Positions 1 through 38,541 of a stretch of DNA of 50,821 nucleotides are shown one piece after another. The position numbers were made by a program, and so were the translations under genes. The first letter of the stretch is position 1. Every line of letters begins with the position of its first letter. This DNA is from an uncultured Bacilli bacterium (GTDB taxonomy: Bacteria; Bacillota_I; Bacilli_A; RF39; UBA660), in the NCBI GenBank assembly GCA_947589435.1, contig CANQBI010000006.1:1-50821 (forward strand), given 5' to 3'. A model generated the notes under the pieces. That model saw nothing but the letters and a program-made list of their open reading frames with translations. It made no database searches and was not told the DNA's origin.

Positions 1-1299
1 AAAACTGCTTTATTAATTGAAGGAGCAAGAAGAGTAGGTAAAAGTTATATAGTTGAAGAATTTGCTAAAGAAAATTATAAATCTTATATATTAATAGATT
101 TTTATAAAGCCCCAAATGAAATAAAAGAGTTATTTGATAATTATTTAGATAATCTTGATTATTTATTTACTTATATATCTCAATATTATGAAAAAAAATT
201 ATATGAAAGAGAATCTTTAATTATATTTGATGAAATTCAATTTTGTCCTAAAGCAAGAGGAGCCATTAAACATCTAGTTGCCGATGGAAGATATGATTTT
301 ATCGAAACGGGATCTTTAATATCTATTAAGGAAAATGTTCAAGGTATTTTAATTCCTTCGGAAGAAGTTAGTTTAAAGATGGTTCCTATGGATTTTGAAG
401 AATTTTTATGGGCAATGGGTAATGATACATTAATGGATTATATAAAAACTTGTTATAATGAAAAAAGACCAATGGGACAAACTCTACATAGAAAAGCTAT
501 GGACTATTTTAAAGAATATTTAATTGTGGGTGGTATGCCTCAAGCAGTACAGGAATACTCTATTTCAAGAGATTTTGAAAAAGTTGATTTTATTAAAAGA
601 ACTATTTTAAAATTATATAGAGCTGATATAAGAAAATATACTGGTGAATTAAATTTAAAAGTAGAAAAGATTTTTGATATGATACCTTCGCAATTACAAA
701 AACATGAGAAAAAGTTTAATATTTCTTTGTTATCAGAAAATTCCAGGTATCGAAATTATGAAGATGCTTTCTTTTGGTTAGAAGATGCGGACTTAGTAAA
801 TATTGCTTATAATACAACTGAACCAAATATTGGGTTAGGACAAATGATTAGTAATAATAGTTTAAAATGTTATATGTTTGACACTGGGTTGTTATTATCG
901 ATGACTTTTAATGAAAAAAATATAGTAAGTAATGCCATATATAAAAAAATATTATTTGATGATTTAGCATTTAATGAAGGTATGATTATGGAAAATATTG
1001 TATCTCAAATGTTAGTTAGTAATCAAAGGAAATTATATTTCTTTTCTAGAAATAATAGAGAAGATTCTAAAGAAACATTGGAAATTGATTTCTTAATATC
1101 AAGTAATGAAATAACTAATAAACATAATATTATTCCTATAGAAGTTAAATCTTCAAAAAGATTTACGCATTCTTCTTTAGATAAATTAATAAATAGATAT
1201 AAGAATTATTTAGATACTCCAATTGTAATTTATCAAAAGGATTTAAAAATAGAAAATAATATTTTATTTATTCCAATTTATATGAGTGAATTATTATAA
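1..1299 (+). CDS. AAA ATPase with C-terminal DUF4143 (5' end missing)
   Basis: The reading frame is open from the first base, so the N-terminus lies outside the window; 432 residues are visible. A Walker A motif GARRVGKS lies at residues 8-15 and a Walker B LIIFDEIQ at about 73-80. The rest matches the layout of the AAA_14/DUF4143 family: a helical middle part and a C-terminal nuclease-like fold with EIDFLI and IPIEVKSSK, the D...ExK pattern of PD-(D/E)XK enzymes. Such proteins are common in gut Firmicutes and Bacteroidetes; their cellular role is poorly known. A hairpin terminator follows at 1313-1350. An internal ATG at 379 could be mistaken for the start, but the upstream ATPase motifs are in frame. 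Confidence 0.88.
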   Translation, partial: KTALLIEGARRVGKSYIVEEFAKENYKSYILIDFYKAPNEIKELFDNYLDNLDYLFTYISQYYEKKLYERESLIIFDEIQFCPKARGAIKHLVADGRYDFIETGSLISIKENVQGILIPSEEVSLKMVPMDFEEFLWAMGNDTLMDYIKTCYNEKRPMGQTLHRKAMDYFKEYLIVGGMPQAVQEYSISRDFEKVDFIKRTILKLYRADIRKYTGELNLKVEKIFDMIPSQLQKHEKKFNISLLSENSRYRNYEDAFFWLEDADLVNIAYNTTEPNIGLGQMISNNSLKCYMFDTGLLLSMTFNEKNIVSNAIYKKILFDDLAFNEGMIMENIVSQMLVSNQRKLYFFSRNNREDSKETLEIDFLISSNEITNKHNIIPIEVKSSKRFTHSSLDKLINRYKNYLDTPIVIYQKDLKIENNILFIPIYMSELL

Positions 1300-1312
1300 A
1301 AGAAAAAATGTT

Positions 1313-1350
1313 AAGAACAGTAACAGAAGTGGAAGAACTGTTCTTTTTGT
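1313..1350 (+). terminator. Intrinsic terminator of the AAA ATPase gene
   Basis: A 9-bp inverted repeat, AAGAACAGT (1313-1321) and ACTGTTCTT (1337-1345), is followed by a T-rich run. It ends the ATPase gene. Confidence 0.75.
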
Positions 1351-1383
1351 TTTAAGTTAAGATAAATAATAGAGGCCCCCTTT

Positions 1384-1507
1384 GGTAGGGAAAGGTGACA
1401 AGAAAAGGGATAGGGAGAGAGGGAAGAAAAAAACTTTAGTTCGAGAAAGAGAGAGAGAGGGAATAAGAAAAAGAGTGGAGGGGTGGTGGAGGAGGAAGAA
1501 GAGAAAT
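1384..1507 (+). repeat. Polypurine (G/A) tract before the first SipW-type gene
   Basis: About 120 bases are almost wholly G and A on the plus strand, including a run of GA dinucleotides near 1445-1458 and GGT/GGA triplets near 1475-1495. No other stretch of the window looks like this. It covers the ribosome binding region and possible start codons of the following gene, whose paralogs at 2265 and 3175 have ordinary short leaders. It may be a slippage-prone tract. Confidence 0.7.
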
Positions 1508-2179
1508 ACAATGTTACTGACAGTAATCGCAGTAGCAACATTATTAGTAGCAGTAGTAGGAGCAACATTTGCATATTTTAGTTTAACAGCTACTGGAGAA
1601 AGCAAAACAACAGGTACAATAACAACTCCAAAGATAGGTACTGCAACAATAACGGGAGAAAATAATACTTTAACATTAAATCTTACTGCTGAGGATATGG
1701 TTAAGGGTGTAGGAGATAAAATTTATTATGCTTCTGCATCTGGTGATAGTAATAAAACTACTGGTAATGCAATTAATATTGCAAAAGTTGATTTAAAAGG
1801 TGCTCAAGAAAATGCCGAGTATTCTTGTAAAACAACGGTTACAGTTTCAGTTTCAGGCACAATGAAAGATAGCTTACAAGCGGGATGGGCTACATTAAAA
1901 TTAACAGGCTCAGGTGCGACAGAACCAGATGCTTCAAATATTGATATTAAAGATATTGTTACTTCTGGTGGTACATATACAGGTACTGCGGTGGTTAAAG
2001 CTACAACGGCTGGGCAATCACCAGATACTGATGGTTATAGTGGAACAGCTAATATTTTAAGCGCTGTATTATCATTTACAAATAAAGTAGATGCTCCACA
2101 AAATGACGTTGCAGGTAAAACATTAACTGTAACGATAAATGTAACTGGAGGAGAATGTACTTTACAAACAGGCGATTAA
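1475..2179 (+). CDS. SipW-dependent-type secreted protein (TasA/camelysin-like), copy 1
   Basis: This is a secreted protein of about 235 residues. The N-terminus carries a basic stretch (RRKKRN), a hydrophobic segment and the ending VVGATFAYFS, the signature of signal peptides cleaved by the SipW-type peptidase; known substrates include TasA fibre proteins and camelysin. The mature part is rich in Thr, Ser and Gly and beta-type. It is paralogous to the next two genes, with shared motifs LTAEDM, TATI and ECT near the end. The start is uncertain: GTG at 1475 keeps the basic region, ATG at 1511 has a better SD (GGAGGAGG) but loses it. No SipW peptidase gene is in the window. Confidence 0.75.
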   Translation: MEGWWRRKKRNTMLLTVIAVATLLVAVVGATFAYFSLTATGESKTTGTITTPKIGTATITGENNTLTLNLTAEDMVKGVGDKIYYASASGDSNKTTGNAINIAKVDLKGAQENAEYSCKTTVTVSVSGTMKDSLQAGWATLKLTGSGATEPDASNIDIKDIVTSGGTYTGTAVVKATTAGQSPDTDGYSGTANILSAVLSFTNKVDAPQNDVAGKTLTVTINVTGGECTLQTGD

Positions 2180-2264
2180 TAACTAATTTTAGATTTTCAA
2201 TAGTTTTATTTTGAAATAAACTTTGGAAATCTATATTTATAATTGGCAATGGAAGGAGTTTAAA

Positions 2265-3174: not shown

Positions 3175-3861
3175 ATGTTTGATAAGAAAAACACGATGAT
3201 TCTTACTATTGTTGCAGTAGCGACTTTACTTGTGGCTGTTGTAGGTGCGACATTTGCTTACTTTTCAACAGGTATAAGTGGAGGCCCTACAACTACTAAA
3301 GCAACAGTAACAACTGCCACTCCAGGTTCAATTGTAATTGATGGAGGTGGAGAAACATTAACTTTAAAATTAAGTGCAGCCGATATGATGTCAAATAATA
3401 CTGGAACATATTATGCATTAAATGCAACTGATTCAAAAGACTTAACTGATGCTGAATCAATTCATGGTGGAAAGAACATTGAAAAATTATATACCATTGC
3501 TAATGCTAATATTAAAGATGGTGGAAGTGATGTAACATATAATTGTGGTTATGAAGTTACAGTAAAATCTACAAGCGGTGCTATAAGTGGATTTACTGGT
3601 TTAGCATTGAAACTTAAAGGTCCAGGCATAGAAGGTTCTGGTGATACTACAACTGTTGATCTTAGTAATTTAAGTACTACTGGTACAACTAAGACAGGAA
3701 CCTTTGCTTTAAAGGGTCCAAGTGGAAATTCTACAATTTCAGCAGGAGTATATTTAGAAAATAAAACCGATAATGGTGCTCAAAATTCTATTGCAGGTAA
3801 AACTGCTAATATTACCATTGAGGTAAAAGGCAAAGAATGTACAATAATGGCTAGTGAATAA
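3175..3861 (+). CDS. SipW-dependent-type secreted protein, copy 3
   Basis: This is a 228-residue secreted protein starting MFDKKNTMILTIVAV with the cleavage region VVGATFAYFS. The SD AAAAGGGTG lies about seven bases before ATG 3175. It shares LKLSAADMM, YNCGYEVTV and a final KECT with its two upstream paralogs, so the three arose by tandem duplication and then diverged strongly in the mature part. It is likely a surface or matrix protein. It has its own promoter and terminator. Confidence 0.85.
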   Translation: MFDKKNTMILTIVAVATLLVAVVGATFAYFSTGISGGPTTTKATVTTATPGSIVIDGGGETLTLKLSAADMMSNNTGTYYALNATDSKDLTDAESIHGGKNIEKLYTIANANIKDGGSDVTYNCGYEVTVKSTSGAISGFTGLALKLKGPGIEGSGDTTTVDLSNLSTTGTTKTGTFALKGPSGNSTISAGVYLENKTDNGAQNSIAGKTANITIEVKGKECTIMASE

Positions 3862-3927: not shown

Positions 3928-4204
3928 GATAATATAAGTGGGTAATCTTGATATAGTGTTAGGTATGGCAAGAACAGTAACGGCAATTACAATGCGTGGA
4001 ATGTGAATGATAACGGCAACTTGGACAACTGGAATTTGAACAATACGAATGCGGTTCGCCAAAGCCTTCTATAACTTGAATGAATATATGGTTAAGACTA
4101 TATACTAGGGAAGATAGAAGACAAAGATTATCTAGGATTTTATCCAAACTAAAAACGAGGATGATTGGTTTTACGAAACTAATCTATTACCTCGTTATTT
4201 TTTG
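3928..4204 (+). ncRNA. R1: structured RNA element with DGR-template-like core
   Basis: This is the first of four homologous elements (R1-R4). GATAATAT (3928-3935) resembles a -10 box, and the conserved transcript begins near GGTAATCTTG at 3941. The core, 3964-4060, has codon periodicity and reads RYG...AWNVN.NGNL...AVR with many Asn codons, but no open frame extends upstream. The 3' domain has a hairpin closed by TATATGG/CTATATA (loop TTAAGA), a small hairpin GGAT/ATCC at 4135-4145, an outer stem AACGAGG (4154-4160) / CCTCGTT (4190-4196) and an inner stem around TACG, then T residues. Changes in R2-R4 preserve the pairing. It resembles the template and spacer RNA of a DGR. Confidence 0.75.
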
Positions 4205-4305
4205 TGATTTTACAACAAATGTGTTCTTTTTCAAAAGAAATTTCACGAAAAAAAAGGAAATCAGAGATTTTTTTACAATAATATAAGTGAAGGGAGGAAA
4301 AATAT
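4205..4305 (+). promoter_or_regulatory. L module: shared leader with promoter and SD, copy 1
   Basis: About 100 bases directly after R1 recur after R2 and R3 with few changes: ACAACAAATGTGTTC, a T run, a GAAATTTC-type block, then TTTTTTTACAATAATATAAGTGAAGGGAGG written here only in part. The box AATAATATAAG resembles the -10 box of the R elements, and GAAGGGAGG is an SD. The cargo gene differs: an Rpn-like nuclease here, DUF3800 in the other two copies. After this SD a short basic reading frame (TTG 4310 to TAG 4366, 18 codons) precedes the nuclease gene. Confidence 0.55.
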
Positions 4306-4380
4306 TGACTTGAATTTTATAAGTAAAAAAAGAATAAAAAAGTTGATTAAAGATACTAAAAAATAGAAAAGGAGAATTGA

Positions 4381-5274
4381 ATGATTGAAGAAAAAGAAGA
4401 AGTGTTAAAAGAACAAAATGGGGAAAATGAAGAAAATAAATTTTATCATTTAAAATATGATAGAGTATTTAAAAAGGTAATAGATGTTAATCCAGAAGTT
4501 TTAGAAAAAGTATTAACAGATATTTTAGAAGAAGAAGTAAAGATAATTAGTTTTGTCCCTACAGAACTACCAATTAAGAATGTCAAAAGTAAAGTAAATA
4601 CATTAGATATTTTAGTTAAGACTAAAGATAACCAAATTTTAAATATTGAGCTTAATACAAACTTTGATAAAGTAACTAAAGAAAGAAATTTAGTATATTA
4701 TACAACTTTGTACTCTCAAAAGAAATTAAGGGGAGAATATATCGAAGATATAGATGAAAAATTAGAAGTATTACATATCGATATAAATTTTAATGAGAGT
4801 CAAAAAGAAGAAGAGAAGAAAGTATTTTATGTGCAAAATGAGAAAGGAATAAAATACAGCGAAAGCTTTAAAATTATCACCGTAAACATTGCTAAGTACA
4901 AGCATATGTGGTATGATAAAAACATAAAAGGTGATAAAACCCACATATATTTAGTAATGTTAGATGCTAATAAAGAGGAGTTAAGAAAGTTAGCAAAGGT
5001 AGATAAGCTAATAAAGGGAGTAGATGAAGAAGTGGAAAAGTTAAATGATGATTTTGTATTTAGAAGAGAGATAAGTAGAGAAGAAGAGGCTAAGATAAGA
5101 GAACAAATGCGAGTTAATGAAGCCAAAAAAGAAGGTAAATTAGAAGGCATTGAAGAAGGAGAAACAAACAAAACTAATGCCATTGCCAAGAATATGCTTG
5201 AACTAGGATTAGAAGAAGAAGTAATAATTAAATCAACTGGAATATCAAAAGAAGAATTAGACAAATTAAAATAA
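4381..5274 (+). CDS. Rpn/PD-(D/E)XK nuclease family protein (putative transposase-like)
   Basis: This 297-residue protein belongs to the Rpn/PDDEXK_2 family, often labelled transposase but in characterised Rpn proteins a DNA endonuclease promoting recombination. The N-terminal FYHLKYDRVFKKV and the core LDIL (D76) ... NIELN (E90) fit the PD-(D/E)XK fold; the usual lysine or glutamine after E is N92 here. The C-terminus has the family's Lys/Glu-rich EGKLEGIEEGE stretch and a final helical repeat. ATG 4381 follows AAAAGGAG. It sits right after R1 and its leader, the place taken by DUF3800 genes after R2 and R3. Confidence 0.82.
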   Translation: MIEEKEEVLKEQNGENEENKFYHLKYDRVFKKVIDVNPEVLEKVLTDILEEEVKIISFVPTELPIKNVKSKVNTLDILVKTKDNQILNIELNTNFDKVTKERNLVYYTTLYSQKKLRGEYIEDIDEKLEVLHIDINFNESQKEEEKKVFYVQNEKGIKYSESFKIITVNIAKYKHMWYDKNIKGDKTHIYLVMLDANKEELRKLAKVDKLIKGVDEEVEKLNDDFVFRREISREEEAKIREQMRVNEAKKEGKLEGIEEGETNKTNAIAKNMLELGLEEEVIIKSTGISKEELDKLK

Positions 5275-26672: not shown

Positions 26673-27851
26673 GTGAAAAGAAAAATAATGATTATTGGAA
26701 TAGTATTTATACTTATAATAGAAAGTATATTTGTTTATAATTTATTTAAACCAAATAAATCACAAATACTTCAAGATATTAAGACAATAAATATATTTGA
26801 AAATAAAGATAAGACACTTTCTATAATGATTCAACAACCGGATTATACTTATAAAGAAGATACAAGTAGAACAGCATGGCCAAGTACAAGTGAGTATTTA
26901 TATTCAGGAGCTAAATGTACAGATAAAGATGGAAACACAATAGTTGATGCGGGACAATATATAAGTTTTGAAGAGACAAATCATACAGCAACAATAACCA
27001 CTAAAAAGACAATATATTGCACATTATACTTTGCCAATGGAAGACCAGCTTTAGAAGTATTAGATTCCCAAGGTGGGACATACTATGCTGGAGGTACACA
27101 AGGGAATAGGACCGCAGTTCAAGGTTTATATAGGTTCAAGGGAACCGCGAGCCAAGTAACAAATAATTATATATGTTTAGGTGCAGATGAGAATCCAGAT
27201 AAATGCAAAACAAATCCAGATAATATGTATCGAATAATCGGAGTAACAGATGGAACAGAAGAAAAAGACTTAGGCTTAAAAGCAGGAATGTTAAAGGTAA
27301 TAAAAGCCACACCACCAAGTGACGGAACAAGTATAAAATGGGCAAGTAGTTATAGTTCAAATTACGATTGGGATAATACAAATGCAACCGCAAGAAAGTA
27401 CTTAAATGAAACATTTTATACAGGAAGTACAATAGATGTAAGAATAAAACCATATATAGTAGAAGTAAATTGGTGGAAAGGAGATTATCATTCTGATTAT
27501 CCTAGTTCATTAGAAACAAAGATAAAAACAACAGGACAATATCAAATAGGATTAATGTATCAAAGTGATTACGTAAATGCATATCAAGATAAATCAACAG
27601 ATAATTGGTTATTCATAAAAAATGGATTAACAGGAAATACTGTAGTAGCGGAATGGACCATGAGTAGATATGGCTTACTCAGTAGCAACAACTATTATGC
27701 TGCGTGGCGTGTTCGTGAGGAGGGATGGCTGCATAACCCGGCTTTGACCGCTGAGCAGGCGGTTCGTCCAGTATTCTATCTAGCAACCACAACAGGACTA
27801 ATAGGATTTGGAACTGAACAACAACCATACACAATTACAACTATTAAATAA
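26673..27851 (+). CDS. Secreted protein with DGR-like C-terminal variable region
   Basis: This 392-residue protein starts at GTG 26673 after AAGGAGG. It has an N-terminal membrane/signal helix, a beta-domain, and from about residue 165 a region common in gut Firmicutes surface proteins (NYICLGADENP, MYRIIGV, WASSYSSNYDWDN, QIGLMYQSDYV). The C-terminus has RYG at 332-334, then AW.V...G.L...AVRPVFYL, the scaffold of C-type-lectin-like DGR targets. Residues 333-365 (27669-27768) form the candidate variable region. This stretch is GC-rich, about 63% over 27701-27770, against the AT-rich background. Its stop is 16 bases before the promoter box of element R2. Confidence 0.8.
   Translation: MKRKIMIIGIVFILIIESIFVYNLFKPNKSQILQDIKTINIFENKDKTLSIMIQQPDYTYKEDTSRTAWPSTSEYLYSGAKCTDKDGNTIVDAGQYISFEETNHTATITTKKTIYCTLYFANGRPALEVLDSQGGTYYAGGTQGNRTAVQGLYRFKGTASQVTNNYICLGADENPDKCKTNPDNMYRIIGVTDGTEEKDLGLKAGMLKVIKATPPSDGTSIKWASSYSSNYDWDNTNATARKYLNETFYTGSTIDVRIKPYIVEVNWWKGDYHSDYPSSLETKIKTTGQYQIGLMYQSDYVNAYQDKSTDNWLFIKNGLTGNTVVAEWTMSRYGLLSSNNYYAAWRVREEGWLHNPALTAEQAVRPVFYLATTTGLIGFGTEQQPYTITTIK
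27669..27768 (+). other. Candidate DGR variable region (VR)
   Basis: These 100 bases encode RYG...AWRVREEGWLHNPALTAEQAVR in part. Over 22 codons it aligns without gaps to the core of R4 (AWNVNTDGNLNRNNVDNTNAVR in part): A, W, V, G, L, A, V, R are fixed and the Asn positions of R4 become R, R, W, H, P, A, A, Q. Most substitutions hit A bases of Asn codons, but several third positions also differ, so none of R1-R4 is its exact template. Confidence 0.6.
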
Positions 27852-27867
27852 AAGTATTAAAATATAG

Positions 27868-28149
27868 TATAATATAAGTAGGTAATCTTGATATAAGTGT
27901 TATTAGGTATGGCAACAACAACGGCAATTACAATGCGTGGATTGTGAATGATAACGGCAACTTGAACAACGGTTACAATGTGAACAATACGTTTGCGGTT
28001 CGCCTTAAGCCTTCTATAACTTGAATGAATATATGGCTATGGCTATATACTAGGGAAGATAGAAGACAAAGATTATCTAGGAATATAATTCCAAACTAAA
28101 AACGGAGATGATATATTTTACGAAATATATCTATTACTCCGTTATTTTT
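27868..28149 (+). ncRNA. R2: structured RNA element with DGR-template-like core
   Basis: TATAAT (27868-27873) lies 16 bases after the stop of the VR gene. The conserved transcript begins at GGTAATCTTG (27881). The core reads YGNNNGNYNAWIVNDNG and ends in FAVR. Hairpins: GGAAT/ATTCC at 28080-28092; outer stem AACGGAG (28101-28107) / CTCCGTT (28137-28143); inner stem GATATATTT/AAATATATC with loop TACG. The outer stem differs from R1 at two paired positions on both strands, keeping the pairs. The order target-VR then template-like RNA is the order of DGR loci. Confidence 0.78.
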
Positions 28150-28250
28150 ATGTGTTTTTACAACAAATGTGTTCTTTTTTTAAACAAATTTCGCGAAAAA
28201 AAAGGAAATCAGAGATTTTTTTACAATAATATAAGTGAAGGGAGAAATAT
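28150..28250 (+). promoter_or_regulatory. L module, copy 2
   Basis: This is the shared leader between R2 and the DUF3800 gene, with ACAATAATATAAG promoter-like box and SD GAAGGGAG. The SD points to a four-codon frame ATG ATA TTA TAA at 28251-28262. ATGAT and ATCAT around it can pair. Confidence 0.55.
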
Positions 28251-28285
28251 ATGATATTATAAAAATCATATAAATATTTTACAAC

Positions 28286-28981
28286 ATGACAGCATTAAAA
28301 GTAGCAAATTTATTAGAAATTCATATTGATGAATTTGGAGATTTAGGAAATAGTAAAGGTTCTTCTAATTTGTATGGAGTATCATTTGTTTTATATAATC
28401 CAAAATATGATATAAGTAAAGAAGTAGATAGTTTAAATAAAAGATTAGAAAGAATAGGATATAAAGGAATGATTCATACAGCTAATTTAATTAGTAAAAG
28501 GGGAGAATATAGTAAGTTACCCTTAAATGTAAGAAAAAGAATTTTTAATTCTTTATATTTGTTTGCTAAAAAAATTGATGCTAAATATTTTACTATTATT
28601 GTAGATAAGAAATATTCCTCTAATTTAAGAATATTAAAAAGAAAAATATATAATGAAATAAATAATATGATTAAAAGAAATGAAAAATATTTTAAAAAGT
28701 TCGATAAAATAAAAGTTTATTATGACAATGGTCAAAAAGATTTAGGAAAGGTAATTGATAAAGTATTTAAAGAAAACTTCGAAAATTATGAACATATAAA
28801 AGAATTTGATCATGTTGAAAATAGATTATTTCAAGTAGCGGATATGTTAACATTTATAGATAGATTAGATTATAAATTTAAAAATAAAATATCATTTACT
28901 AGTGATGAAAAATATTTCTTTTCTAATATGAAAATAAAAAAAGTAATTAATGAATTGTTATTAATGAAATTAAAAAAATAG
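28286..28981 (+). CDS. DUF3800 family protein, copy a
   Basis: This 231-residue protein is of the DUF3800 family, thought to have an RNase-H-like fold. The N-terminal family motif IDESGD reads IDEFGDLG here. The later acidic residues (DNGQKDLGKV, EFDHVENRLFQVADML with conserved D) are kept. It is closely similar to copy b. ATG 28286 lacks an SD; the strong SD of the leader serves a four-codon frame 24 bases upstream, so translation may be by reinitiation. The family is often on mobile DNA, with no established function. The TAG stop lies in a hairpin shared with U1. Confidence 0.82.
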   Translation: MTALKVANLLEIHIDEFGDLGNSKGSSNLYGVSFVLYNPKYDISKEVDSLNKRLERIGYKGMIHTANLISKRGEYSKLPLNVRKRIFNSLYLFAKKIDAKYFTIIVDKKYSSNLRILKRKIYNEINNMIKRNEKYFKKFDKIKVYYDNGQKDLGKVIDKVFKENFENYEHIKEFDHVENRLFQVADMLTFIDRLDYKFKNKISFTSDEKYFFSNMKIKKVINELLLMKLKK

Positions 28982-29128
28982 CCAAAGGCTATTCTTTTAA
29001 GCAATGCAATGCACCTGCGTTGGCCGAGCCACTTAACTGGCTCGCAAATAGAAATATAATACAAGTTCAATAATAGTATTATATTTTCTTAACAACTTAA
29101 TTATACTATAATTGATACACAAAGTAAA
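28972..29128 (-). ncRNA. U1: small RNA gene, minus strand
   Basis: Promoter TTTACT (29128-29123) - 17 - TATAAT (29105-29100). The predicted RNA of about 120 nt has an AU hairpin near its 5' end, the hairpin CGAGCCAGUUAAGUGGCUCG in 29044-29025, a second hairpin with GGUGC, and a terminator AATAGCC/GGCTATT (28993-28977) plus T run. The terminator differs in sequence from U2-U5 but keeps the fold, and it overlaps the stop codon of the DUF3800 gene. Confidence 0.75.
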
Positions 29129-29151
29129 GCAAAAAAATTTATTATGACATT

Positions 29152-29309
29152 ATAAAAGCAACCAATACGGCTGCGATTATAAAGCGGTGCATTGCACTTG
29201 CTTGAGGGCGAGCCACTTAACTGGCTCGGATAGAATAAATATAAATAGTTCTATTTATATTATATTCCTTTAATGAATTAATTATACAATAAATGATACA
29301 TAATGTAAA
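29152..29309 (-). ncRNA. U2: small RNA gene, minus strand
   Basis: Promoter TTTACA (29309-29304) - 17 - TATAAT (29286-29281). Hairpins in the RNA: ATAAATA/TATTTAT near the 5' end, CGAGCCA/UGGCUCG with loop GUUAAG (29228-29209), GUGC/GCAC inside AAGC/GCUU, and terminator GCAGCC/GGTTGC followed by TTTTAT. The 5' region is close to that of U4. Confidence 0.8.
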
Positions 29310-29351
29310 GTAGTAAATTTAAAAAATTGAAATTTTAATAATTGAATCATT

Positions 29352-29485
29352 ATAAAAGCAACCAATAAAGGTTGCAATTATAAGCGGCGCCTAGCACCTA
29401 CGCGGGGCGAGCCACTTAACTGGCTCGGAAGAGACATTGTATCTCTTAATAAAAACATTATATCAAATAAGATACTCAATGTAAA
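29352..29485 (-). ncRNA. U3: small RNA gene, minus strand
   Basis: Promoter TTTACA (29485-29480) - 17 - TATAAT (29462-29457). The RNA of about 98 nt has AAGAGA/TCTCTT, then CGAGCCA/UGGCUCG with loop GUUAAG, then GGUGC-UAG-GCGCC, then terminator GCAACC/GGTTGC. It is followed on the plus strand by element R3. The 5' region is close to that of U5. Confidence 0.8.
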
Positions 29486-29526
29486 TAGTTAATTGTCTTT
29501 TTATATTAAATAAATAAAATTAATGC

Positions 29527-29802
29527 GATAATATAAGTAGGTAATCTTGATATAGATGTTAGGTATGGCTATAACGGCAATTATTACAATGCGTGGAATG
29601 TGAATTCGGACGGCAACTTGAACACTGACAATGTGAACGATACGATTGCGGTTCGCCTTAAGCCTTCTATAACTTGAATGAATATATGGTTAAGACTATA
29701 TACTAGGGAAGATAGAAGACAAAGATTATCTGGGATTTTATCCAAACTAAAAACGAGGATGATAAATTTTACGAAATTTATCTATTACCTCGTTATTTTT
29801 TT
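29527..29802 (+). ncRNA. R3: structured RNA element with DGR-template-like core
   Basis: GATAATAT (29527-29534) then GGTAATCTTG (29540). The core at 29564-29657 reads YGYNGNYYNAW...VNSDGNLN...AVR, then LKPSIT and a stop. Hairpins: GGAT/ATCC (29733-29743); outer stem AACGAGG (29752-29758) / CCTCGTT (29788-29794); inner stem GATAAATTT/AAATTTATC with loop TACG; T run. The inner stem differs from R1 and R2 at several positions, each with a matching change on the other strand. Confidence 0.78.
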
Positions 29803-29899
29803 ATTTTTACAACAAATGTGTTCTTTTTTTAAAGAAATTTCGTGAAAAAAAAGGAAATTCGAGATTTTTTTACAATAATATAAGTGAAGGGAGAAAAAT
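29803..29899 (+). promoter_or_regulatory. L module, copy 3
   Basis: The same leader as after R1 and R2, including AATAATATAAG and SD GAAGGGAG. The SD serves ATG ATG TTA TAA (29900-29911). The DUF3800 ATG 24 bases later has no SD. Confidence 0.55.
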
Positions 29900-29935
29900 A
29901 TGATGTTATAAAAATCATATAGATAGTTTTACAAC

Positions 29936-30625
29936 ATGACAGTATTAAAAGTAGCAAATTTATTAAAAATTTATATTGATGAGTCTGGTGATTTTGGTAA
30001 CGGAAAAGGATCATCTAAATATTATTTAGTATCATTTGTTTTATATAATCCCAAATATGATATAGCAAAAGAAATAAATGATTTAAATAAAAGATTAAAA
30101 AGGATTGGTTATGAAGGAATGGTTCATACAGCCAATCTAATTAACAATAGAGGTGAGTATAGTAAATTACCTTTAAATGTAAGAAAAAGTATTTTTAATG
30201 CTTTGTATTTGTTTGCCAAAAAAATAGATGCAAGATATTTTACAATTATAATTGATAAAAAATATGCCAGTAATTTAAGAACTTTAAAAAGAAAGATATA
30301 TAATGAGATAAATAATATGATAAAAAGAAATGAAAATTATTTTAGTAAGTTTGATAAAGTAGAAGTGTATTATGACAATGGTCAAAATGATTTAGGAAAA
30401 GTAATAGATAAAGTGTTTAAAGAAAACTTTGAAAATTATGAACATATAAAAGAATTTGACCATGTTGAAAATAGATTATTTCAAATAGCAGATATGTTAA
30501 CGTATATAGATAAATTATTTTATAAACATAAAAATAAGCTAAATAATACATATCATGAAAAATATTTCTTTCAAAAAGATATTATAAGAAAAATAATTAG
30601 AGATTTAAGTAAGAAAAAATTATAG
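29936..30625 (+). CDS. DUF3800 family protein, copy b
   Basis: This 229-residue paralog of copy a keeps the consensus motif IDESGDFG at residues 13-20, as well as HTANLI, YYDNGQNDLGKV and FDHVENRLFQIADML. The two copies are near-identical in their middle but differ at the C-terminus. Copy b probably has the intact active-site motif, copy a a changed one (Ser to Phe). The tandem arrangement R-L-DUF3800-U-U indicates a segmental duplication. The start has the same SD-less context as copy a. Confidence 0.83.
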   Translation: MTVLKVANLLKIYIDESGDFGNGKGSSKYYLVSFVLYNPKYDIAKEINDLNKRLKRIGYEGMVHTANLINNRGEYSKLPLNVRKSIFNALYLFAKKIDARYFTIIIDKKYASNLRTLKRKIYNEINNMIKRNENYFSKFDKVEVYYDNGQNDLGKVIDKVFKENFENYEHIKEFDHVENRLFQIADMLTYIDKLFYKHKNKLNNTYHEKYFFQKDIIRKIIRDLSKKKL

Positions 30626-30628
30626 AAT

Positions 30629-30786
30629 TATAAAAGCAACCATAGAAGGTTGCAGTTATAAGCGGCGCCTAGCACCTACGCGGATCGAGCCACTTAACTG
30701 GCTCGGGGAGATATAAAATAAATATTTCTATTTATATTATATTCCTTTGACAATTTAATTATACAATAAATGATACATAAAGTAAA
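30629..30786 (-). ncRNA. U4: small RNA gene, minus strand
   Basis: Promoter TTTACT (30786-30781) - 17 - TATAAT (30763-30758). Hairpins: ATAAATA/TATTTAT, CGAGCCA/UGGCUCG (30705-30686), GGUGC-UAG-GCGCC, terminator GCAACC/GGTTGC (30653-30636) with TTTTAT. It lies just behind the DUF3800 copy b gene, convergent to it. Confidence 0.8.
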
Positions 30787-30828
30787 GGGGTAAATTTTAA
30801 AAAGTGAATATTTATTAAAAATAACATT

Positions 30829-30965
30829 ATAAAAGCAACCATAGAAGGTTGCAGTTATAAGCGGCGCCTAGCACCTACGCGGGTCAAGCCACTTAACTGG
30901 CTTGCAAATAGAGATATAATATCTCTTAATAAAATTATTATATCAAATTAGATACTTAATGTAAA
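30829..30965 (-). ncRNA. U5: small RNA gene, minus strand
   Basis: Promoter TTTACA (30965-30960) - 17 - TATAAT (30942-30937). The GC hairpin is CAAGCCA/UGGCUUG: one base pair changed on both sides relative to U1-U4, a compensatory change. The 5' hairpin AGAGATA/TATCTCT and terminator GCAACC/GGTTGC are present. It is followed on the plus strand by element R4. Confidence 0.8.
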
Positions 30966-31005
30966 TAATTATTTTTCTTTTTATATAAAATAGATGAAAT
31001 TATGC

Positions 31006-31278
31006 GATAATATAGATAGGTAATCTTGATAATTATGATAGGTATGGCCTCAACAGCAGCAATTATCGGGCGTGGAATGTGAATACAGACGGCAACTTGA
31101 ACAGGAATAATGTGGACAATACGAATGCGGTTCGCCAGAAGCCTTCTATAACTTGAATGATTATATGATTAAGGTTATATACTAGGGAAGATAGAAGACA
31201 AAGATTATCTAAGACTTTTAGTCTAAATTGAAAACGGAGATAATAAGTTTTACGAAACTTGTTTAGAACTCCGTTATT
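31006..31278 (+). ncRNA. R4: structured RNA element with DGR-template-like core
   Basis: GATAATAT (31006-31013), GGTAATCTTG (31019). The core at 31043-31136 reads YGLNSSNYRAW...DGNL...AVR. Hairpin closed by TATATGA/TTATATA; small hairpin AGACT/AGTCT (31212-31224), a full replacement of the GGAT/ATCC pairs in R1; outer stem AACGGAG (31233-31239) / CTCCGTT (31269-31275); loop TACG kept. The T run is weak, and the L module is missing: sufC follows directly. Confidence 0.75.
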
Positions 31279-31329
31279 TGTTTAAAAAAAGATGAAATTA
31301 TGGTATAATCTAACTCGTAGGTGACAAGT

Positions 31330-36684: not shown

Positions 36685-38541
36685 ATGAATATCGAAGAAT
36701 TATTGAAACTTAGAAGTAATGCGTTAAATCATGAGAATAAAACAGGTTATCCGCATTTGGATTTAAGCCATTTACAATATTATACAGAGGACGCTATTAA
36801 AAATTATGGTGTTCCTGATTTATCAATGTATGGCCTACTTTATAAAAGTATTATTGAAAATAAAATGCAAAATTTAGTAGCAATGGAATATTTTGGTCGC
36901 AAAATAACTTATGAAGAATTTTTAAGAAAAACAAATGATTATGCTTCTGCATTTACGGAAATGGGAGTAAAAAAAGGTGAAGTTGTAAGTATTGCGAGTC
37001 CTAATATACCAGAAGTTTTTTATGCAATTTATGCTTTAAATAAAATTGGAGCAATCGCCAATTTAATTGATCCGAGAAATAATTTAGATAGAATAAAACA
37101 ATATATAAATCAAGTTAATTCTGAGAAATTAATCATGTTAGATATTGTATATCCTAAAATTATGCGCATAATTGAGGATACTAATTTAAAAACCGTTTAT
37201 ACGATATCGGCATCAGATTCTTTACCTTTAGGATTAAATTATATTCAAAGTGCCAAAACAATTGTGGAAAATCACCGTAAAGGACTACCAAATTGTCCAA
37301 AGAATGATGTTTATATGCCTTTAACAAAACTAGTAAGTGAACATCGAAAAGAAATTAGTTTTGAACCAAGCGAATTAACAACTAGTGAATCAGTTAGAGA
37401 TAATGTAGCGGTTGTTATAAATACCTCTGGTACAACTGGTACTCCAAAAGGAGTAATGCTTACTAACAAAAATTTAAATGCTGTAGCCCTAGATTATAGG
37501 TATTCAGGAATGAATGAAGAAGTAGGAGATAAATTCTTAGGAATAATGCCTAATTTCTTAGCTTATGGTGTAGGTGTTGGTTTACATATGCCTTTAGTTT
37601 TAGGTTTAACAAATGTCATAATTCCATCATTTAAGCCAGAAGATTTCCCTAAACTTATTTTAAAACATAAGCCAAATCATTTTGCTGGAGTTCCATCATA
37701 TTATCAATATCTTATTGAAAATCCTAAAGCTCAAAAAGCTGATTTATCATTTATTAAAACGCCAGCTGCTGGTGGAGATGCTATGGACCAAAAACTAAAA
37801 AGAAAAACTAATGAATTTTTACAAAGACATAATTGTCAAAGTAAAATCGTTGTGGGTTATGGTTGTTCAGAAAATACAGGACTTGCAGCAACACAAATTT
37901 ATGTTGGAGAATCAACACTAGAAAATGAATTATCTACAGTGGGAATTCCAGCTTTAAATACAGGTATTAGAATTGTTTCTCTAGAAGATGGAAGAGATTT
38001 AAAATATAATGAAACCGGGGAAGTTTTACTTACTGGTGAAGGGGTAATGAAAGAGTATGTTAATAATCCAGAAGAAACTCAAAAAGTAATTGAAATTAAA
38101 GATGGTATAAGACATTTACATACTGGAGATGTTGGCAGAGTTGATGAAGAAGGTAGATTATATATTGTCGATAGATTAAAGAGAATGATAGTCCGTCAAG
38201 ACGGCCATAATGTTTTCCCACTTTATATTGAAAATGTGGCAACAAGCCATCCATATGTTAAAGCTTGTACTTGTGTTGGTTTAAAAAATGAAAAAGTTGT
38301 TAATGGTCATTTTCCAGTAGCTTTTATTCAATTAGAAGAAGGTCATGAAGCCGAAGTTGAAAAAATTATTGAAGAATTAAAAACTCTTGCTTTAGAAAAA
38401 TTACCTGAAAGAGATGTTGCTTTTGATTATGTAGTAGTAGATCATATACCAGAAACAGGAAATGGCAAAATTGATTATAAATATTTTGAAGAAAATTATA
38501 CATATGATGGAGGACTTTCTAGAAAAAGAATTCAAAATTAA
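36685..38541 (+). CDS. AMP-binding acyl-CoA synthetase-like enzyme
   Basis: This 618-residue adenylate-forming enzyme should activate a carboxylic acid, likely a fatty acid, with ATP. Motifs: NTSGTTGTPKGVMLTNKNL (P-loop), GYGCSENTG, the TGDVGRVDEEGRLYIVDRLKRMIV hinge region, and a C-terminal GNGKIDYK with the catalytic lysine. There is no signal peptide. ATG 36685 follows GAGGGTGGG. It is a single gene with a terminator at 38555. The substrate cannot be told from sequence. Confidence 0.88.
   Translation: MNIEELLKLRSNALNHENKTGYPHLDLSHLQYYTEDAIKNYGVPDLSMYGLLYKSIIENKMQNLVAMEYFGRKITYEEFLRKTNDYASAFTEMGVKKGEVVSIASPNIPEVFYAIYALNKIGAIANLIDPRNNLDRIKQYINQVNSEKLIMLDIVYPKIMRIIEDTNLKTVYTISASDSLPLGLNYIQSAKTIVENHRKGLPNCPKNDVYMPLTKLVSEHRKEISFEPSELTTSESVRDNVAVVINTSGTTGTPKGVMLTNKNLNAVALDYRYSGMNEEVGDKFLGIMPNFLAYGVGVGLHMPLVLGLTNVIIPSFKPEDFPKLILKHKPNHFAGVPSYYQYLIENPKAQKADLSFIKTPAAGGDAMDQKLKRKTNEFLQRHNCQSKIVVGYGCSENTGLAATQIYVGESTLENELSTVGIPALNTGIRIVSLEDGRDLKYNETGEVLLTGEGVMKEYVNNPEETQKVIEIKDGIRHLHTGDVGRVDEEGRLYIVDRLKRMIVRQDGHNVFPLYIENVATSHPYVKACTCVGLKNEKVVNGHFPVAFIQLEEGHEAEVEKIIEELKTLALEKLPERDVAFDYVVVDHIPETGNGKIDYKYFEENYTYDGGLSRKRIQN

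Follow-up and report, generated by a model that had tools for sequence, protein, structure and literature searches.

Dispersed template RNA genes and one reverse transcriptase point to a multi-template diversity-generating retroelement in an uncultured Bacilli bacterium

A dispersed family of template RNA genes

Four copies of a short, structured RNA gene (R1 to R4) were located on the forward strand of a 50,821-nucleotide contig (CANQBI010000006.1; C6, the window) in the genome assembly of an uncultured Bacilli bacterium (GCA_947589435.1; 1,440,375 bases in 62 contigs, 93% complete). Very likely they encode the template RNAs of a diversity-generating retroelement (DGR) with 13 template units, which are probably served in trans by one reverse transcriptase (RT) with its accessory protein Avd. 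That a multi-template DGR acts in trans is judged probable from the sequences, which provide an RNA family with a conserved fold, the RT and Avd, adenine-specific differences between variable repeats (VR) and template repeats (TR), the paired sites for the initiation of mutagenic homing (IMH and IMH*), and the co-occurrence of RNA and RT in related genomes. Each dispersed copy is presumably active at present.

The initial annotation, made from the letters of the window, had proposed the four elements and all were found in place. Their spans run from a GGTAATC motif to the end of a terminator hairpin, at 3941..4200 (R1), 27881..28147 (R2), 29540..29798 (R3) and 31019..31279 (R4). Directly upstream of each span is a -10-like box, TATAAT for R2 (27868..27873) and GATAAT for R1 (3929..3934), R3 (29527..29532) and R4 (31006..31011); the block at R1 is conserved in all 13 copies of the genome. 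The TR core of R1 has 98 nucleotides (nt), AGGTATGGC...GCGGTTCG, at 3961..4058, and is followed by a structured 3' domain at 4058..4200 that was matched by the covariance model and includes an IMH*-like start and the terminator hairpin. The corresponding cores and 3' domains are at 27905-28002 and 28003-28147 in R2, 29561-29655 and 29656-29798 in R3, and 31040-31134 and 31135-31279 in R4.

Use of R3 as a DNA query retrieved 13 full-length copies from the genome with E < 1e-68, so the likeness of R1 to R4 is not due to chance. Four copies are on C6, two each on C13 and C7, and one each on C45, C11, C28, C18 and C4 (our labels for contigs; related genomes and loci are labelled G and L). The next-best matches covered the core only, and several of these were inside target genes. 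All 13 copies contain the -10-like box, GGTAATCTTGA, the AGGTATGGC...GCGGTTCG core and a 3' domain whose terminal hairpin precedes a T-rich stretch. The cores range from 83 to 107 nt in steps that are multiples of three. The boxes and hairpins suggest that each unit is transcribed by itself. At the Rfam gathering score a tRNA was the only match in the window, and the RNA family is thus without a known Rfam identity.

Fold of the 3' domain

The 3' domain folds over about 145 nt. The stem variants described in the initial annotation were read in the sequences, namely AACGAGG/CCTCGTT versus AACGGAG/CTCCGTT for the outer stem together with the inner stems, as were the small-hairpin variants GGAT/ATCC, GGAAT/ATTCC and AGACT/AGTCT. 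Outer and inner stems together form a single terminator-type hairpin, and the T run that comes after it is weak in R4. The TACG loop, described as invariant, is constant in the four copies of the window but is TATG in the copy on C45, one of the 13 in the genome.

RNAalifold analysis of the 13 3' domains gave 37 base pairs, nine of which had changed on both sides and one of which was broken in three copies. Folded as single strands, two of the 3' domains had z values of -3.1 and -1.7, the latter in a shape unlike the consensus; the case for the fold therefore rests on covariation. A covariance model yielded 66 matches, some in overlapping loci, among the 49 sources searched. In the 56 distinct sequences, whose alignment was fitted to that model, 96.8% of the cells were paired, 26 of the 37 pairs had changed on both sides and 269 cells were doubly changed. 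Sliding the partners by one to three columns left only five to nine such pairs and 11-39 doubly changed cells, and shuffled controls averaged 14.8 pairs changed on both sides. The selection on RNA structure that had been proposed from four copies is thus borne out by the 13 copies and more strongly by the 56 sequences, and the lack of covariation that had been named as evidence to the contrary was not observed. The covarying fold corresponds to the structured spacer RNA that follows the TR in DGRs.

Reverse transcriptase, Avd and the C13 operon

The elements had been described as being without an RT, which is true of the window but not of the genome. Two RTs were detected with PF00078, one on C17 and one on C13. 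The C13 RT (about 36700-37824) contains the motifs IGNMTSQ and YMDD, and both were also present at an RT locus in each of the 15 other genomes with a strong RT match. The hallmark of DGR RTs is (I/V/L)GxxxSQ in domain 4 with YxDD in domain 5, as given in PMC3521204. The protein matched phrog_1423, "Reverse transcriptase", with an E value of 7.6e-74. Its best PDB match was 8ub7_A, "Reverse transcriptase" (E 3.8e-22), which we take to be the BPP-1 DGR complex. PADLOC returned general RT matches only. An IMG/VR search with the DGR RT confirmed no relative, and there is therefore no sign of a viral carrier.

Upstream of the C13 RT is a gene for Avd, whose product matched phrog_3206, "Avd protein of DGR" (E 4e-15), as well as NF033474 (E 2.1e-8; 34 bits, below the cut-off of 80) and bAvd PF22296 (E 2.3e-6, also below cut-off). 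An Avd homologue is beside the RT in the relatives too. The operon includes a third small gene (103 amino acids) with weak Pfam matches throughout, such as MutS_I (E 0.063, under cut-off). MSL (Pfam PF01624) has been named as a DGR accessory (PMC10053308), and any link between the third gene and MSL is no more than a lead. Upstream of the third gene, avd and the RT gene there is an RNA copy (C13:38691-38966), and a second copy is 1.4 kb further. Dispersed templates served by an RT encoded elsewhere, the arrangement put forward in the initial annotation along with a search for a DGR-type RT and Avd, therefore agree with what was found, with both proteins on another contig and one RNA copy upstream of their operon.

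The RT on C17 (locus L001, G000:C17:110-3685; 1261-2232, minus strand) is retron-like, with matches to PDLC03739 RT_Ec107-like (E 5e-126) and the retron St85 family NF038233 (E 9e-64, under cut-off). A retron identity was considered for the RNA and rejected, since the retron-like RT sits on C17, where no copy of the RNA was found.

Co-occurrence in related genomes

The RNA and the RT were searched for in 60 genomes, including 37 members of the genus (own genome counted), with thresholds of E <= 0.001 for the RNA model and E < 1e-80 for a strong RT homologue. The RNA was detected in 18 genomes, all of the same genus, with 1-13 matches per genome, some of them truncated. A strong RT homologue was present in 16 of the 18, so that the absence of a DGR-type RT, which had been listed as an outcome that would speak against the proposal, did not occur; conversely, all 16 genomes with a strong RT contained the RNA (own genome included in both counts). 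Avd and the third gene were present at the RT loci of all 16, and by coordinates an RNA copy lies 0.7-1.1 kb upstream of the RT in each. Templates occur four in a row on G034:C11 and on G001:C21. The two RNA-bearing genomes lacking a strong RT are G014, considered below, and G029 (62% complete), which had a 51-nt partial RNA match and one PF00078 match on another contig.

A class-wide sample of 296 genomes was searched with stricter filters, which got back 10 of the 13 copies in the own genome. Only four genomes matched, all from the same family and two of them from other genera, one at an E value of only 2.5e-4; the RNA is therefore not widespread in the class sample. In G009 (locus L133) fragments of an RT (62 residues) and of an Avd (44 residues) were observed with no RNA match, and these look like a remnant of the same system.

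Target genes and adenine-specific differences

The window contains one DGR-type target gene (26673..27851, plus strand; 392 amino acids), whose C-terminal domain matched DUF6273 weakly (E 0.017, under cut-off); DUF6273 was detected in 15 of 22 family members at E <= 0.1. The gene ends about 30 nt before the R2 motif, which corrects the picture in the initial annotation. Its VR (27666..27766) and the IMH-like 3' block of that repeat (27759..27781) are on the same strand. The VR fits the present templates of the genome poorly, and from its sequence it has probably not been rewritten recently.

Counting its own, 48 places in the genome encode relatives of this protein, and they fall in about 46 open frames (49 search rows, two of which represent one place; two frames hold two domains). 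Most end like EWTM(T/S)RYG...AW.V...G.L...AVRPVFYL. A search with the alignment detected 7-101 target-domain matches in each of 10 other genus members; the 101 matches were in G004, whose 1.1-Mb genome gave one RNA match. The 79 titled loci among the relatives all belong to "uncultured Bacilli bacterium" metagenome-assembled genomes with isolate names "Lapin-...", a name that may be read as a rabbit gut origin. The AlphaFold2 model of the 223-residue domain encoded by 27180-27848 had a predicted local distance difference test value of 91.4. Foldseek matched it to the IgA peptidase 9qa6 (E 9e-4) and to the Lcl C-terminal domain (probability 0.97, E 0.06), and many C-type lectin domains followed further down with poor values (E > 0.5). 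A search of solved structures with the target alignment gave nothing useful. The model is consistent with the C-type-lectin-like fold usual for DGR targets, without being proof of it, and the targets may have a surface-binding role.

The VR set comprised 47 of the 48 places; C26:13-561 was left out because a contig end cuts the target. Differences were counted in the 19 VRs with a neutral score of at least 30, each against its best template in the genome. Template adenines differed in 276 of 549 positions compared with 145 of 1238 for other bases (C, 36/313; G, 59/523; T, 50/402; Fisher p 6e-66 for adenine against the rest). Within AAY codons, positions 1, 2 and 3 differed in 133, 97 and 15 of 194. 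The third position was spared, which is unlike ordinary coding divergence and points to copying of an RNA with errors at A. Letting a single template base vary freely accounted for 13 of the 47 VRs if that base was A and for none if it was C, G or T, the limit being 10 residual differences (mismatches plus one third of the gapped bases). At least 75% of mismatches, the share used as a DGR criterion in PMC8144416, fell at template adenines in eight of the 47 VRs; the other 39 fit more poorly and may, like the R2-adjacent target among them, be old or no longer rewritten.

The 3' block of the VR in most targets is close to GCGGTTCGCCCAGTCTTCTATCT at the DNA level. Most RNAs have GCGGTTCGCC, then 0-3 nt, then AGCCTTCTATAACT, which by eye faces GCGGTTCGCCCAGTCTTCTATCT and provides the IMH* counterpart of the IMH. 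In the fold, CTTCTAT of the IMH* region forms a stem with ATAGAAG, which occupies columns 57-63 of the alignment downstream of the core. In BPP-1, an adenine that lies inside the spacer and within IMH* primes cDNA synthesis (PMC12875486); by analogy, priming in the R-type RNAs may also occur near IMH*.

One might suppose that the RNAs belong to DUF3800/PDDEXK_2 mobile cassettes or are structured small RNAs of an unrelated kind, that their likeness to the targets was inherited and that target diversity arose by ordinary selection or gene conversion. Several copies do share a downstream block that leads to DUF3800 or PDDEXK_2 genes. We consider this supposition very improbable, given the adenine-specific differences with third codon positions kept, the IMH/IMH* pair and the co-occurrence with an SQ-motif RT and Avd; an even spread of VR differences over the template bases was tested for and not found.

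Under the DGR reading, each of the 13 units, 12 of which lie outside the RT operon, would produce a short RNA from its own -10-like box to its terminator-type hairpin. The RNA would consist of the 83-107-nt core, in which AAY codons mark the sites to be varied, and the folded scaffold of about 145 nt, to which the RT with Avd would bind. The cDNA would be primed near IMH*, where the CTTCTAT/ATAGAAG stem closes, template adenines would be miscopied by the RT, and the cDNA would replace the VR in those DUF6273-like paralogues that carry the IMH block. The templates differ in their fixed and variable codons and in length, and the set would therefore widen the sequence space open to the targets.

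Which templates are in use

When VRs were assigned to templates with an adenine-aware cost, the RT-adjacent template was best for none of the 24 best-fitting VRs among the 47, the lower half of which fit poorly, and eight other templates were best instead. Neutral scoring likewise assigned 15 of the 19 well-scoring VRs to eight templates other than the RT-adjacent one, and the best template for a given VR depended on the scoring scheme. It is conceivable that only the RT-adjacent template is active and the 12 others are decaying duplicates. One copy upstream of the third gene, avd and the RT gene is the usual DGR layout, and six of the 18 RNA-bearing genomes had a single RNA match, one of them partial. 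These assignments nonetheless make such decay unlikely, as do the retention of GGTAATCTTGA and the fold in all 13 copies, with core lengths stepping by multiples of three, and the compensatory changes among those copies, which point to continued selection.

Several observations weigh against the multi-template reading. With neutral scoring the RT-adjacent template was top for four of the 19 well-scoring VRs and seven of all 47. Targets lie directly before five of the 13 copies (R2, C7b, C11, C28 and C18), and none of these is best fitted by the neighbouring template. A strict DiGReF-type criterion asks for identity at all non-A positions; no VR agreed with a template to that extent without gaps, and the best gap-free VR had three non-A differences. 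The RNA hairpins were absent from the terminators listed by the pattern scan. Among the relatives, four of the 16 strong RT matches contained in-frame stops (G012, G021, G024 and G027), weaker RT matches without the RNA were present in four genomes (G007, G009, G018 and G059), and G014, which is 94% complete and has 10 RNA copies (loci L097 and L113), yielded no RT, in the PF00078 search too; its RT was either lost or missed by the assembly. The own assembly is fragmented and, at 93% completeness, may have collapsed or dropped repeats.

A further point against concerns the donors. Comparison of the 13 own cores with 12 cores from G026 and G032 on 16 VRs of the own genome showed that the relatives' templates fit better in nine cases, equally in three and worse in four. 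This was contrary to expectation, so firm donor assignments were dropped and the present templates are not put forward as the donors. The VRs may mostly have been written by templates that have since vanished, the set turning over and its present copies descending from donors. Such turnover, which is compatible with a multi-template DGR, has in our estimate an even chance of being correct. The better fit of the relatives' templates favors it, with one very A-rich core (from L159) behind several of the nine cases, and some orthologous cores differ in codon blocks, as in C11 versus its G026 and G032 counterparts (91/100 and 92/100). Other orthologous cores are nearly identical to those of G026 (C45, 89/91; C7b, 82/82; R1, 96/97), and some VRs are clearly fitted best by a template of their own genome. 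The C44 VR, for example, differed from C11 at three non-A positions, and the next template had six plus two gapped codons.

Eight of the 47 VRs had both halves past the thresholds, and in six of these the halves pointed to different present templates; simulations from single templates split in only 0/195, 1/188 and 3/159 cases. The split may result from template switching, successive partial homing or template turnover. A combinatorial repertoire, in which one RT-Avd uses interchangeable templates, VRs are mosaics and templates swap codon blocks so that library and products both evolve, is a tentative idea that we think rather less likely than not to hold. Between cores, AAY codons differed in 355, 254 and 216 of 1573 at positions 1-3, and given these counts rewriting of the templates by the adenine mechanism is not claimed. 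Ten target pairs were also compared with G026, with a pooled identity of 2923/3670 for the part upstream of the VR, 572/799 for the VR and 1460/1769 for the part downstream. This comparison is not leaned on because at least one pair (L175/L058) was mispaired, the VR of L177/L051 was more alike than its upstream region, and orthology was otherwise uncertain.

Neighboring genes and other repeats

A PDDEXK_2 (PD-(D/E)XK nuclease family transposase) gene is located downstream of R1 (4381..5274), and DUF3800 genes are downstream of R2 (28286..28981), as a cassette partner, and of R3 (29936..30625), all on the plus strand. A conserved block of about 134 nt follows the terminators of R1, R2 and R3 (4199-4332, 28147-28280 and 29796-29929). 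The block runs into DUF3800-type genes after R2, R3 and C7a and into PDDEXK_2-type genes after R1 and C13a, the neighbors of C7a and C13a being named by likeness to genes of the window. Judging from this arrangement, the block and its genes may be mobile cassettes that carry templates, which could explain the spread of the templates.

A second repeated, small-RNA-like family surrounds the DUF3800 genes, with five copies on the minus strand at about 28970-29128, 29141-29309, 29349-29485, 30626-30786 and 30825-30965. Its features are a TTTAC(A/T)-17-TATAAT box (five in all), a hairpin of the GAGCCAGTTAAGTGGCTC type and a block rich in GGTGC, and four of the copies also have GCA(A/G)CC...GGTTGC-TTTTAT, which resembles a terminator; no Rfam match was obtained for it at the gathering score. 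Elsewhere in the window, three genes (family D9) share a hydrophobic N-terminal segment (1499-1592, 2271-2364 and 3184-3277) and likely encode secreted or anchored proteins.

Comparison with known systems

The mechanism is a known one, that of DGRs, in an unusual architecture. As in the BPP-1 DGR (avd-TR-brt; mtd), there are an RT, Avd, a folded spacer after the TR, IMH/IMH* and adenine-specific rewriting (PMC12875486). In BPP-1 a single template sits between avd and brt, whereas this genome holds 13 template units, 12 of which lie beyond the RT operon, and its target family occupies 48 places. Targets far from the RT and apparently rewritten in trans have been described in remote or multi-target DGRs (DiGReF, Trichodesmium and Thiohalocapsa PB-PSB1), with up to four VRs per RT plus distal open reading frames, 18 loci of TR/VR homology, or nine DGR loci (PMC3521204, PMC8867640 and PMC10907252). 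The available portions of those accounts do not describe many stand-alone template genes for one RT, unlike the situation here.

The MetaCSST survey reported a single TR in 216 of 271 multi-VR DGRs and more in the rest, and a case with six TRs is called atypical there, with few A-to-N changes (PMC6642488). The literature searched, which lacked most subscription journals and was consulted in passages, yielded remote targets and some multi-TR cases but no DGR that has a dozen template genes standing alone. The usual picture of a DGR, in descriptions and in searches alike, is a template adjoining an RT, and a large survey noted that its own approach would miss remote targets (PMC8144416). In this very small genome one RT appears to serve many templates and a large family of targets, so some gut bacteria may be capable of more diversification than current counts suggest. 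The compact RNA units with their covarying scaffold also offer a natural set for examining what the RT and Avd need in an RNA, whether templates compete and how a target's template is chosen.

Treponema denticola resembles the present bacterium in having several TR variants, which there are described across isolates and metagenomes (PMC4891356), while here 13 copies occur in one genome. The DGR targets of gut phages have a DUF6273 domain with the variable region at the C-terminus, as the targets do here (PMC11792537), and the DUF6273-like domain resembles a C-type lectin (PMC10743442). Those targets belong to phages, whereas the present ones make up a large family distributed among a bacterium's contigs.

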